This document shows positions 12,447 to 18,978 of a stretch of DNA of 24,805 nucleotides, piece by piece; the first letter of the stretch is position 1; every line of letters starts with the position of its first letter. Both the position numbers and the translations under genes were made by a program. Under the pieces are notes generated by a model that did no database searches, was not told where the DNA came from, and saw only the letters and a program-made list of their open reading frames with translations. Location: contig JAVCCG010000140.1 of assembly GCA_030765605.1 (NCBI GenBank), positions 1 through 24,805 on the forward strand, in the 5' to 3' direction. The stretch is from Candidatus Alcyoniella australis (lineage in GTDB: Bacteria; Lernaellota; Lernaellaia; JAVCCG01; Alcyoniellaceae).

Positions 12447-14609
12447 CTATTGGCAGCCGCACGAGTCGTCGTCATCGTCGTCGTCGCCGCCAACATCGTC
12501 GTCGCCGCTGTCGTCATCGTCGTCGTCGCCGCAGCCCTCGTCGATCTCGCCGTTGCAGTTGTTGTCCACGCCGTCGTCGCAGACCTCGTCCGCATCGGGA
12601 TTGATCGCGGCGTCGCCATCGTCGCAGTCGTCCTGGCAGACCATGAAGCCGTCAAGGTCGAGGTCGACCTCGTCCGCGCCCGGCGCGCCGTCGCAGTCGT
12701 TGTCGATCCCGTCGCATTGCTCGGGGTTGCCCGGGAAGCGCAGCGCGTCGCGGTCGTCGCAATCCAGTCCGTCGCACTGCGCGCCGTCGACCCCGTCGTC
12801 GTCCCAGTCGCAGTCAAAGAGCATCGGCGTCTGCGGATCGCCGAACAGCAGCAGCTCGTACATCTGGTAGCGCATCATCGTGTTCGGGTCGAGCAGCGCG
12901 ATGTTGGCCTCGCGGCTGTAGTCGTGGGCCGCGCCGAGCTCGTGGATATCCTCGGTGAACAGCGCGTCGGCAAAGGTCCAGTCGTAGACGCTGCTCGGGC
13001 CGTCCAGCCGCCCCTCGAGGTAGAAGCCGTAACGCGAGTTGGCGATGTAGGCAAACGCTCCGGCCCCGGTCTTGTCGGTGAAGTACTCGACGATGCAATC
13101 GCCCGAATAGTAGCCGCCGTAGGTCGAACGCGAATCGATCGAGCCCGCGTAACAGCCGTGGGACCAGCCCAGGTAATAGGTGGTGTTGGTCAGGTCGTAA
13201 ACGTCGGAAGTGTAGAAGGACATGTTGGACGTGACGTTGCTGTGGCCGCAGTGGTTGACCCACTGGTGCTCGTTGCTGTTGATGTTGTTGACGATCGCCG
13301 AGTAGCTCAGCGTGCCCAGGTCGGAGTACAGCCGCGTGGCGTCGACCTCGTCCATGTGGTCGTGAATCAGGTTCTTGATGTCGCCGCCGGAGGTGTACGA
13401 ATCGAGCGTCTCGCCCACGAGCATCACCTTGCGCGGCGCGCCGTTTTGCTCGAAGCCCATGATCTTGGCGATCTGGTTGTTGGCCTCGTCCACCGTGTCC
13501 GCGGCAATTCGGCCCACGCTGAGCTCGTACATCAGGTCGACCTCGCCGCCGCCCTCGCCGTCGGTGGGCTCGCCGAACTTATCGTCGCCGTCGAAGTTGT
13601 ACGAGCCGTCCAGGCAGCCGAAGTACAAATCCGAGGCCATCACCGTCTCGGTGTAGGTCGTGGGGCCGTCGGGGTCGATCCCGGTGACCCACAGCATGCG
13701 CATCGGCGCGGTCCAGCCCGCGGGGTTCGAGCCGTCGACATCGCCGACGATCAGCAGAAAGCGCGTGCCCCAGTTGGCGTAGATGTCCTGGGCGAACGCG
13801 CGCACCTTGGCCGTGAGGTCCGCGCCGCTGTAGTTGGCCTCCACGTCGGTCAGGGTGTAGACCGTGGCGCTCAGGCCCCAGACCGCGGCCTTAAAGTCGG
13901 CCAGCGTCTGCATTGTCGCGGCGAACGAGGCCGGGCAGAGGATCACGTATTCGTACTCCTCGGTCGGCGATTTATCGGCCGCGTACAGCGCCAGGTACGA
14001 TGGATTGTCCACCAGCCGCGCCAGGGTCTCAAGGTCGGACGCCGATCCGCGAAACGGCATCTGCGGCTCGATCGGCTCGACCGTCCGGGGCGCGGTCTCG
14101 ATGCTGATATCCATCTGACGGGCGTGGGTCAGTCGGCCGCTGAGCGGCTCGTACTGGGTCGGTTGCAGCCGCAGCGGCAGGATCTGCACGCCGAGTTTGC
14201 GCTGCACGTCGAAGACCTCTACCCCTTCGCCGGGGTAGGCGCTTTGGCTTAGGTAGACCGCGGGATCGCGCCAGCGCGGGCCGGGCGTGGCGTCGGTCTC
14301 GCCGCAGAGCTTGCGCAACGCTCCCACAGGCGCCAGCTCGAGATCCTGTTCGAGCAACATCACGTCGCCGGGAGTTACGCGCACCGACAGCAGCCGGCTT
14401 TGCGGCGGCAGCGCCACGTAGACCGTGCGCACGGGCATCGCGGGTCGACCCGGCACCGCCAGCATTGGCGATTGGGACTCAAGCTCGACGCCCTGGGCGC
14501 CGAAGTGCAGTTGCGGCTCGGTAAAGCTGTAGCTCAAATTGATTGTGGCGGCCGCAGCGGGCACGGAGAGCGTCGCGATCAGCGCGGTCAGCAGCAGTAG
14601 ACGTCGCAT
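12447..14609 (-). CDS. Secreted C25 (gingipain-like) cysteine peptidase with MopE-type metal-binding repeats
   Basis: The 720-residue product has a signal peptide (MRRLLLLTALIATLSVPAAAA), an N-terminal beta-rich propeptide-like part (about 22-205), and a peptidase C25 domain (about 215-595). The domain holds VGD (288-290), ASDLYFGCLDG (325-335), VGRI (366-369), the likely catalytic His456 (NHCGHSN) and the nucleophile Cys486 (WSHGCYAGS), 30 residues apart. Next come Cys/Asp repeats of the MopE-like type (CDGLDCDDRDAL, CDGIDNDCDG, CDDGVDNNCNGEIDEGC), which likely bind Ca2+ or another metal. The end is an Asp-rich tail finishing in SCGCQ. The ATG at 14609 has a GGAG site 5 nt upstream; a longer in-frame start would precede the signal peptide. 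The protein is probably exported or displayed on the surface. Confidence 0.88.
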   Translation of the reverse strand: MRRLLLLTALIATLSVPAAAATINLSYSFTEPQLHFGAQGVELESQSPMLAVPGRPAMPVRTVYVALPPQSRLLSVRVTPGDVMLLEQDLELAPVGALRKLCGETDATPGPRWRDPAVYLSQSAYPGEGVEVFDVQRKLGVQILPLRLQPTQYEPLSGRLTHARQMDISIETAPRTVEPIEPQMPFRGSASDLETLARLVDNPSYLALYAADKSPTEEYEYVILCPASFAATMQTLADFKAAVWGLSATVYTLTDVEANYSGADLTAKVRAFAQDIYANWGTRFLLIVGDVDGSNPAGWTAPMRMLWVTGIDPDGPTTYTETVMASDLYFGCLDGSYNFDGDDKFGEPTDGEGGGEVDLMYELSVGRIAADTVDEANNQIAKIMGFEQNGAPRKVMLVGETLDSYTSGGDIKNLIHDHMDEVDATRLYSDLGTLSYSAIVNNINSNEHQWVNHCGHSNVTSNMSFYTSDVYDLTNTTYYLGWSHGCYAGSIDSRSTYGGYYSGDCIVEYFTDKTGAGAFAYIANSRYGFYLEGRLDGPSSVYDWTFADALFTEDIHELGAAHDYSREANIALLDPNTMMRYQMYELLLFGDPQTPMLFDCDWDDDGVDGAQCDGLDCDDRDALRFPGNPEQCDGIDNDCDGAPGADEVDLDLDGFMVCQDDCDDGDAAINPDADEVCDDGVDNNCNGEIDEGCGDDDDDDSGDDDVGGDDDDDDDSCGCQ
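12453..12560 (-). repeat. Imperfect GAC trinucleotide repeat coding the Asp-rich tail
   Basis: The 3' end of the C25 peptidase gene is a run of GAC/GAT codons interrupted by Ser, Gly and Val codons (seen as CGTCGTCATCGTCGTC on the plus strand). It encodes blocks of six, three and seven Asp residues. Such repeats are prone to slippage. On the opposite strand it creates a long false open frame. Confidence 0.75.
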
Positions 14610-14707
14610 GTTCACTCCATGGGTTTGTCTCGCAGAAAATAGCACCTCGCGCGTTTGGAAAAAAGATGCCGCGCGCGCGGAGCGCTGAAAGTTTTTACGT
14701 TACGCAA

Positions 14708-17736: not shown

Positions 17737-17758
17737 AATAATGTTGGATAACATTATT
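17737..17758. repeat. Perfect hairpin in the intergenic repeat region
   Basis: AATAATGTT-GGAT-AACATTATT forms a 9-bp stem with a 4-nt loop. It is AT-rich and lies 41 bp after the flavodoxin stop. It lacks a GC stem and T-run, so it is not a classical terminator, though an adjacent C5/G5 hairpin (17712-17732) precedes it. Confidence 0.7.
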
Positions 17759-17852
17759 TAGTAGGCGCGAGCAGGGCATTGGCGAGTGGTTTTCATAAAC
17801 TACTCACCTTGCCACCTCCCCCAATGTTTCTACGCGGAAAAGGTCGTGGCGC

Positions 17853-17925
17853 TACGACCAGCGAACTACGCGAGTTTTGTGGCACCTCTAAGGTGCCGCG
17901 AGTTTCGCTGCGGCTCCAAGCCGCC
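17853..17925. repeat. Direct repeat copy 1 (two 28-bp hairpin units)
   Basis: The first 53 bp (17853-17905) are identical to 17991-18043, and the following 20 bp match at all but about four positions. The copy contains unit A (17870-17897), a hairpin GGCACCT-CTA-AGGTGCC, and unit B (17898-17925), a hairpin GCGGCT-CCA-AGCCGC. Both units begin GCGAGTTT. Confidence 0.9.
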
Positions 17926-17947
17926 AAAGATCGTTTTAACGATCTTT
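17926..17947. repeat. Perfect 10-bp-stem palindrome between the repeat copies
   Basis: AAAGATCGTT-TT-AACGATCTTT is a perfect 10+10 inverted repeat with a 2-bp centre, directly abutting repeat copy 1. CGATCTTT recurs at 17960-17967. Confidence 0.8.
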
Positions 17948-17990
17948 ACCCTCCCTCCCCGATCTTTGGTCGCGGAGTGGATCGTTGGAT

Positions 17991-18063
17991 TACGACCAGC
18001 GAACTACGCGAGTTTTGTGGCACCTCTAAGGTGCCGCGAGTTTTGTGGCGGCTCTAAGCCGCC
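17991..18063. repeat. Direct repeat copy 2 (two 28-bp hairpin units)
   Basis: Unit A (18008-18035) and unit B (18036-18063) are tandem 28-mers, both starting GCGAGTTTTGTGGC and ending GCC. They differ only at four positions, which fall in pairs on opposite arms of the stem: GGCACCT-CTA-AGGTGCC against GGCGGCT-CTA-AGCCGCC. Base pairing is thus kept. The period to copy 1 is 138 bp. Confidence 0.9.
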
Positions 18064-18207
18064 CGGGCGCGGGGTGGGTCGTGGCATTACAACCAGCGTA
18101 CTGCGCAAGCCGTGGCGCAGATCTATTGCGGCCCTGACGGGCGTCTGCTAATTTAGCTTTTTCCCAGACGCATCATCGATGTGGGCTGACATCCTACCGG
18201 GTACCTG

Positions 18208-18978
18208 ATGAAAATCTCAGTCTTAGCCAGCGGCAGCAAGGGCAACTCGACCTATATCCAGAGCCAGGGCGTGCGGCTGCTGGTCGACGCCGGGCTGACG
18301 TTAAAGGAACTGACCGTGCGCTTGGCGCAGTGTGGAGCTGACCCTGCGGATCTGGACGGCGTGTTCGTAACCCACGAGCACATCGACCATCTGCGCGGCG
18401 TGGGGCCGCTGGCACGCAAGCACAATGTGCCGGTCTTTGCTGCCCAGCCGGTGCTGGACCGTCTGCGCAGTCAGGGACGGATTCCCGAGCCGCGGCGGAT
18501 TCGTTCGGGAGTTGAGGTCAACGTCGGGCCGTTGAGTGTGCGGCCGTTTCCAATCAGCCACGATGCCAACGAGCCGCTGGGCTACGTGCTGGCGAGCAAT
18601 GGATTTAAACTGGGCTACGCCACGGATCTGGGCATTGCCACCAAACTGGTGGCGCACCATCTGGCCGGCTGCGACGCGCTGGTGCTGGAGAGCAACCACG
18701 ATCCGCAGATGCTGCTCGACGGGCCGTATCCGCCCGATCTCAAGGCGCGGATCAAGGGGCGTCGCGGGCATCTGTCCAACCAGCAGAGCGCCGAGCTTTT
18801 GGTCTCGCTGTTGCACGATCGGCTGCGCTGGGTGTTTCTGGCGCACCTGAGCGAGGAGAACAACAAGCCCGAGCTGGCCCTGGCCTGCGCGCGGCGTAGC
18901 GTGGCCGGACTGTGTTGCCCGGAGTTGACAATCGTGGCCGCCGACCAGCACCGGCCAACCGAGCTGATCGAGTTATAA
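18208..18978 (+). CDS. MBL-fold metallo-hydrolase, YycJ/WalJ-like
   Basis: The 256-residue product is a metallo-beta-lactamase-fold hydrolase with the metal motif THEHIDH (His56, His58, Asp60, His61), an N-terminal LASGSKGNSTYI, later metal His at SHDANEPLGY, Asp in YATDLG, and LSNQQSAELL/FLAHLSEENN. These match the YycJ/WalJ family of putative DNA-processing exonucleases. The exact activity is not shown by sequence. The ATG at 18208 has only a weak GGGT upstream. It lies 12 nt before purB and reads in the same direction, so the two are likely co-transcribed; it directly follows the hairpin-rich region, which may be part of its leader. Confidence 0.88.
   Translation: MKISVLASGSKGNSTYIQSQGVRLLVDAGLTLKELTVRLAQCGADPADLDGVFVTHEHIDHLRGVGPLARKHNVPVFAAQPVLDRLRSQGRIPEPRRIRSGVEVNVGPLSVRPFPISHDANEPLGYVLASNGFKLGYATDLGIATKLVAHHLAGCDALVLESNHDPQMLLDGPYPPDLKARIKGRRGHLSNQQSAELLVSLLHDRLRWVFLAHLSEENNKPELALACARRSVAGLCCPELTIVAADQHRPTELIEL

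Follow-up and report, generated by a model that had tools for sequence, protein, structure and literature searches.

Background

What is the block of repeated hairpins that lies 5' of an operon for an MBL-fold protein (18208-18978) and PurB (18991/19018-20307), and does it belong to that operon or to something spread through the genome? The window (the whole stretch of DNA analyzed; 24,805 nucleotides) is contig C140 in a draft genome of Candidatus Alcyoniella australis that totals 4.29 Mb on 157 contigs; several of the contigs end in repeats of this kind. A sequence-only reading had offered a new dispersed repeat of the REP/MITE type, a structured non-coding RNA, and a leader for the purB operon. 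The most likely answer is a new family of REP-type spreading repeats rather than a purB regulatory RNA, and we regard it as quite probable that the block is a cluster of hairpin repeats that are dispersed, non-autonomous, and specific to the genome, and that work like the REP/BIME/REPIN elements.

The block in the window

The four 28-bp units of the sequence-only reading, in two pairs 138 bp apart, were located in the sequence as described. The A units, GCGAGTTTTGTGGCACCTCTAAGGTGCC, sit at 17870-17897 and 18008-18035 (spacing, 138). The B unit of copy 2, GCGAGTTTTGTGGCGGCTCTAAGCCGCC (18036-18063), differs from A at only two paired stem positions (A-T to G-C and C-G to G-C), which makes two stem base pairs in all, as had been read. 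For copy 1, the identity of the A unit and the loop CCA of the B unit, GCGAGTTTCGCTGCGGCTCCAAGCCGCC (17898-17925), were read correctly, but three differences in the prefix of this B unit had been omitted. The direct repeat in the block is longer than the 28-bp unit (114 nt, 82% identity, 138 apart), and has a third member.

The actual repeat unit is about 66 bp and is made up, in this order, of a body in which GCG arms enclose an inner hairpin, the linker GCGAGTTTTG, and a 7-bp tip hairpin with the loop CNA; the consensus in the window orientation is CGCGGRGNNGGTCGTNNNNTTACGACCAGCGNACTACGCGAGTTTTGN-GGCNNCT-CNA-AGNNGCC. In scoring with the covariance model R1, which was built from 71 units, unit 1 (about 17833-17898, + strand; 83.1 bits) contains unit A of copy 1 and is composed of the body hairpin CGCGG...GGTCGTGGCGCTACGACC, the linker, and the tip hairpin GGCACCT-CTA-AGGTGCC. 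It is followed by an additional linker and tip hairpin with the stem GCGGCT-CCA-AGCCGC (17898-17925, + strand; partial match, 27.7 bits), which is unit B of copy 1. Unit 2 (about 17971-18036, + strand; 86.6 bits, the top-scoring copy of the genome) contains unit A of copy 2, and is likewise followed by an additional linker and tip hairpin, GGCGGCT-CTA-AGCCGCC (18036-18063, + strand; partial match, 32.4 bits), which is unit B of copy 2. Unit 3 (18068-18131, + strand; 48.4 bits) is the further member of the direct repeat; it is full-length, with a decayed tip hairpin of which the pairs are broken.

The extra perfect palindromes that had been noticed around the units are present as two AT-rich sequences, for which no strand is given: AATAATGTT-GGAT-AACATTATT (17737-17758), of a kind that accompanies the arrays, and AAAGATCGTT-TT-AACGATCTTT (17926-17947), the commonest accompanying palindrome with about 30 copies. 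Between the former and unit 1 lies a fragment (17764-17820, + strand) of a longer palindromic intergenic repeat, the GGTTTTCATAAACT.. family, with eight intergenic copies among the loci analyzed, the window included. An inverted repeat that encloses the block (17698-17710/18169-18181) was considered and is probably due to chance, because each arm is itself near-palindromic (ATCGAT). Note that the block in the window is atypical of the family in its surroundings: the flanking genes both point right, and there is no contact with a stop codon.

As a separate observation, the window (12447-14645) and the loci L013 and L019 encode secreted-looking proteins that end in a long Asp-rich tail and, behind it, a Cys motif (..DDDDDDSCGCQ, ..SGDDDDD..GCCG), which is possibly a C-terminal sorting signal of the lineage.

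Copy number and distribution

The search of the genome and its relatives with a covariance model, which the sequence-only reading had proposed as a check, found 163 copies in the own genome and none in six other genomes of the class. With the block as the query, blastn gave 74 matches in the own genome. The repetition is far beyond chance: the 14-mer GCGAGTTTTGTGGC occurs 38 times in the own genome against 0 for the reversed control, and the tip-hairpin pattern SCRSCTCNAAGSYGS occurs 280 times against 11 for the control, the relatives being at the control level. A looser pattern occurs 92 times in the own genome and once in the six other genomes of the class. Blastn over 59 other genomes gave no match, a scan of viral contigs with the exact pattern gave none, and a scan of 84,980 species with the exact degenerate pattern gave one match only (L063), apparently within a coding stretch and judged to be due to chance. 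Rfam gave no match for the window, nor for the arrays at six further loci. As far as these searches reach, only the Alcyoniella species or its unsampled close relatives carry the repeat. A copy and its nearest counterpart at another locus share about 91% identity (median), which does not point to a recent burst.

Covariation of the stems

Among the 71 aligned copies, the tip stem takes several forms (GGCACC, GGCGGC, GGCAGC, CCCGGC, and GCCGGC) around the constant apex CTCNAAG. In these copies, columns 54-64 hold A-T in 39 and G-C in 32 (none broken), columns 55-63 hold G-C in 38 and C-G in 31 (two broken), and columns 52-66 hold G-C in 50 and C-G in 14 (three broken); the pair counts come from related copies and hence are not independent events, and at least three pairs have switched. 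The covariation score was 0.237, compared with 0.119 in shuffles and at most 0.097 with the partner slid. The tip stem is thus kept by paired changes, so that the hairpin and not its letters is conserved, which upholds what the sequence-only reading had argued from the units of the window. The inner hairpin is weaker (76% of the cells paired). Departures from pairing in the stems comprise 33 G-U and 35 A-C, that is, they are equal between the strands; accordingly, nothing indicates that the RNA of one strand is selected, and strand-specific selection on RNA found no support. For the window units, the + strand folds much more stably than its shuffled versions (z = -3.7 and -5.3).

Arrangement and companion repeats

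Adjacent model hits form 47 pairs in direct tandem, most of them spaced by -2 to +3 nt (usually about 1 nt), and three head-to-head pairs; tandem units elsewhere in the genome are about 64-69 nt from start to start. In addition, 26 intergenic CCGCG-N-CGCGG junctions were found, most with outward-facing tips on either side, and the two halves of such dimers often come from different sub-families. The clearest minimal element (L117:2436-2570) runs from a TAG stop codon to the stop codon of the convergent gene, with a tip hairpin next to each of them and CCGCG-A-CGCGG in the middle, about 45 nt from either hairpin. The eight-unit array at L141:2419-3356 lies between convergent tRNA genes and starts 1 nt past the 3' end of tRNA-Leu.

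Other repeats accompany the arrays. A second hairpin family consists of AT-rich perfect palindromes (AAAGATCG/AATAATGT/AATATTGT/AAATATTG), of which the stems interchange while the palindromy is kept (61 intergenic sites in the analyzed loci). Longer palindromic families (GGTTTTCATAAACT.., CGAAATTTCTTAAT.., and CGTTTTAGTTAAT..) adjoin the arrays, and imperfectly palindromic intergenic repeats of greater length (about 200 bp), often ending in GGCGAGC../..GCTCGCC, are found in mid-array (L076:2641, L105:2639, L077:2709, L093:2642, L135:2410, L098:64, and others); several contigs end in them.

Location relative to genes

The gene context was analyzed for 80 genome stretches and the window (81 sequences), with genes assigned by a simple, purpose-written codon-usage caller and not by a published one, so that the gene borders are approximate; the loci were selected for holding copies, and the control for gene orientation was drawn from those same loci. 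Although the loci are 84% coding, 209 of the 228 tips are intergenic. Intergenic regions with tips lie between convergent genes in 34 of 65 cases, compared with 10 of 114 for those without tips (Fisher's test, 2e-10). Of 62 tips that face the 3' end of a gene, 34 stand at most 5 nt from its stop codon, whereas 7.9 are expected by random placement (maximum, 18 in 1000 permutations); for tips that do not face the gene, the figure is 2 of 64. On the start side, none of 37 tips is within 5 nt of the start codon (median distance, 135 nt). Because one array abuts the 3' end of tRNA-Leu, a single example, the target may be gene 3' ends generally and not stop codons alone.

A stop codon is present in the loop of the outward tip (TTAGAG/TTTGAG) in 64 of 91 tips, and in six genes the TGA in the hairpin loop (CTTTGAG) is the stop codon itself: L136:2672-4357 (nadE), L123:2555-3904 (rimO), and genes at L128, L080, L097, and L116. 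The own NadE ends in KDRRLPIT-RHL*, of which AGG CAC CTT TGA is contributed by the hairpin; in the orthologue comparison, NadE of relatives ends in PITNRFRDA*, PITNRYRDE*, or a longer sequence. Similarly, the own RimO ends in SDDFGCL*, compared with YDLFADLIL*/YDLFAALVEVDPA* or longer in relatives. Judged from these comparisons, the C-termini of NadE and RimO are shortened or altered relative to their orthologues, with a copy in place of the last codons. Such ends are what an insertion into the last codons would leave, and they are the best evidence here for mobility; note that the species is alone in its genus, so that there is no true empty site to compare and no transposition event was directly seen.

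A candidate for the mobilizer

The hairpin repeat is probably mobile, and we infer its mobilizer, as well as any effect on gene 3' ends. One Y1-transposase gene is present in the genome, an intact RAYT (REP-associated tyrosine transposase; C95:13478-13834; L062:1829-2401) that matches NF047646 of NCBIfam with 146 bits (cut-off, 80). The RAYT gene and its flanks do not recur elsewhere in the genome, and no unit above noise was found in the 5-kb stretch around it. Y1 transposases are also present in six of the six relatives, none of which has the repeat. Since the flanks of the RAYT gene are unique and the relatives carry Y1 transposases without the repeat, its role in moving the repeat is plausible by analogy only. 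Two further observations concern these genes. About 180 nt past the 3' end of the RAYT gene, at about L062:1639-1652, 14 nt match the unit linker (GCCCGCAAAGCTCG). Another genome of the class, G005, has 23 Y1_Tnp matches, several of them full-length with near-identical scores, that is, an expanded IS200/RAYT-like family.

Under the REP-like reading, copies would have spread within the genome through transposition or copying of hairpin-forming single-stranded DNA, on which the single RAYT (an HUH/Y1 transposase) may act in trans. The arrays may have grown as units were duplicated in tandem and inserted next to older ones. Copies would persist where insertion is least harmful, immediately after genes and above all between convergent genes, and once transcribed there, the hairpins may in addition obstruct 3' exonucleases or ribosomes at termination, as the REPs of E. 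coli have been shown to do. A bolder form of this reading, which we put forward as a speculation with little weight, is a mobile hairpin adapted to gene ends: its loop would supply a stop codon, it would land in or behind the last codons and be harmless there even in essential genes (nadE and rimO), and it would be moved by a RAYT that needs neither the GTAG tag nor linked copies.

Alternative explanations

The strongest rival is that the repeat is a host RNA element of gene 3' ends, that is, bidirectional terminators, mRNA 3' stabilizers, or translation-termination attenuators at convergent gene pairs, kept by selection. This explanation, which is compatible with a mobile origin, is possible, though we consider it clearly less likely than the REP-like reading. 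The outer hairpins within 5 nt of the stop codon, the strong enrichment between convergent genes, and the folding of the + strand of the window units all speak for it, as do the REPs of E. coli, which can stall ribosomes when they are at most 15 nt from the stop codon and which block exoribonucleases (reported by RepRanger; PMC12306157). Against it, the repeat is absent from all six same-class relatives. No U-tract follows the stop-proximal hairpin, and terminator-like sites in the window block are at the chance level (one found, 0.5 expected), so that the one match to an intrinsic terminator was set aside; furthermore, the equal G-U and A-C departures give no sign of selection on a single RNA strand, and translation plays no part where an array abuts a tRNA gene. 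The repeat could also be a MITE-like element that depends on a conventional (non-RAYT) transposase, or could form the ends of a larger palindromic element. This would fit the longer palindromic families that share intergenic regions with the arrays, and also the RAYT gene not flanked by units. We consider it unlikely: no transposase gene with a unit at its ends was noticed in a non-systematic look, and the internal hairpins, outward tips, and adjacency to stop codons are traits of REPs.

The two remaining explanations concern the block in the window in particular. That it is a regulatory RNA leader for the downstream operon was suggested by its position 5' of the MBL-fold and purB genes and by its strong fold (z = -6.9). 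This explanation, and with it the structured RNA of the sequence-only reading, is now very improbable, because the genome has about 160 copies in other places, most of them at gene 3' ends, and none of the 37 start-side tips is within 5 nt of a start codon; the region also has no Rfam match, and is made up of several stacked copies and other repeats, as are many unrelated intergenic regions. A leader RNA dedicated to purB is thus contradicted by genome-wide copies that avoid gene starts, whereas the dispersed repeat that the same reading had suggested is borne out by the intergenic copies found with the model. The period of 138 nt is divisible by three, and open reading frames of 92 and 121 amino acids (17779-18057 and 17786-18151) cross the block, from which a repeated coding sequence could be imagined. 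We dismiss it almost entirely: most tandem units elsewhere are out of frame at their spacing, the substitutions track stem pairing and not codons, and the copies lie outside the predicted genes. The frame is not kept in other arrays, and on this ground a coding repeat was rejected.

With the REP-like reading preferred, the family brings a poorly sampled lineage of bacteria into the range of REP-like repeats. Its approximately 160 natural hairpins, many at near-zero distance from stop codons, are useful for the question of whether such repeats are passengers or tune mRNA ends, and the combination of untagged REP-like hairpins with a RAYT that carries no copies would probe the reach of the GTAG rule and of the REPtron rule.

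Comparison with known repeat systems

The family is REP-like with an unusual half-unit of two hairpins. Since the hairpin has no adjacent GTAG or CGTC tag and copies do not flank the RAYT gene, we use the term REP-like, and membership among the REPs (repetitive extragenic palindromes) is not proven. What it has in common with REPs is many dispersed intergenic copies, a covarying stem with a short loop (within a longer unit), and location at gene 3' ends. Two inverted units are present as in a REPIN or BIME, while many other units are in direct tandem; as for a REPtron, the genome has a RAYT gene, but one that copies do not flank.

MITEs and the Correia/NEMIS-type repeats are, like the present repeat, non-autonomous, dispersed, palindromic, and intergenic. 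The outward tips here are inverted, but no terminal inverted repeats with a target-site duplication and no autonomous partner were identified, with no empty site at hand; moreover, the stems covary and the tips face outward at gene ends. The CGTC-tagged REP families are alike in being REP-like repeats without an associated transposase gene (PMC3733652), and differ in stem length, loop length, and the CGTC tag.

The GTAG-tagged REP families (E. coli, Pseudomonas, and the SMAG of Stenotrophomonas) differ from the present repeat in that no GTAG stands beside the tip here; instead, about two thirds of the copies have GYAG, and only at a distance of about 6 nt from the inner hairpin (in reverse complement, CTAC for GTAG in 37 of the 71 units; GCAG in 9 of the 71; both away from the stem). 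The half-unit here has two hairpins and 66 bp, compared with 20-50 bp for REPs, and the intact units are mostly in direct tandem, whereas head-to-tail dimers are rare in REP families. The likeness is otherwise close: as described by Di Nocera et al. (PMC3733652), these families are high-copy short intergenic palindromes in sub-families with alternative complementary stem residues, with loops of 2-3 nt, many of them CMA (CNA here), and with head-to-head dimers. They lie a few bp from gene 3' ends (within 20 bp) with a preference for convergent pairs, and their termini sometimes supply the stop codon.

Compared with the REPIN and BIME elements (GI-GIII of P. fluorescens and the BIMEs of E. coli), the present repeat has no cluster beside the RAYT gene, the halves of its dimers are often of different sub-families, and AT-rich palindromes from a second family are interspersed in its arrays. 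Shared with them, as reported by Bertels and Rainey (PMC3116915), are head-to-head inverted doublets with hairpin ends, compensatory changes, tandem arrays with insertions beside existing copies, and a single-copy RAYT. The statement of the sequence-only reading that no named family fits therefore stands at the level of the family, for which there is neither an Rfam match nor a GTAG or CGTC tag, but not beyond that level: alternative complementary stem residues, 3-nt loops, head-to-head dimers, and location at gene 3' ends are standard features of REPs (PMC3733652, PMC3116915).
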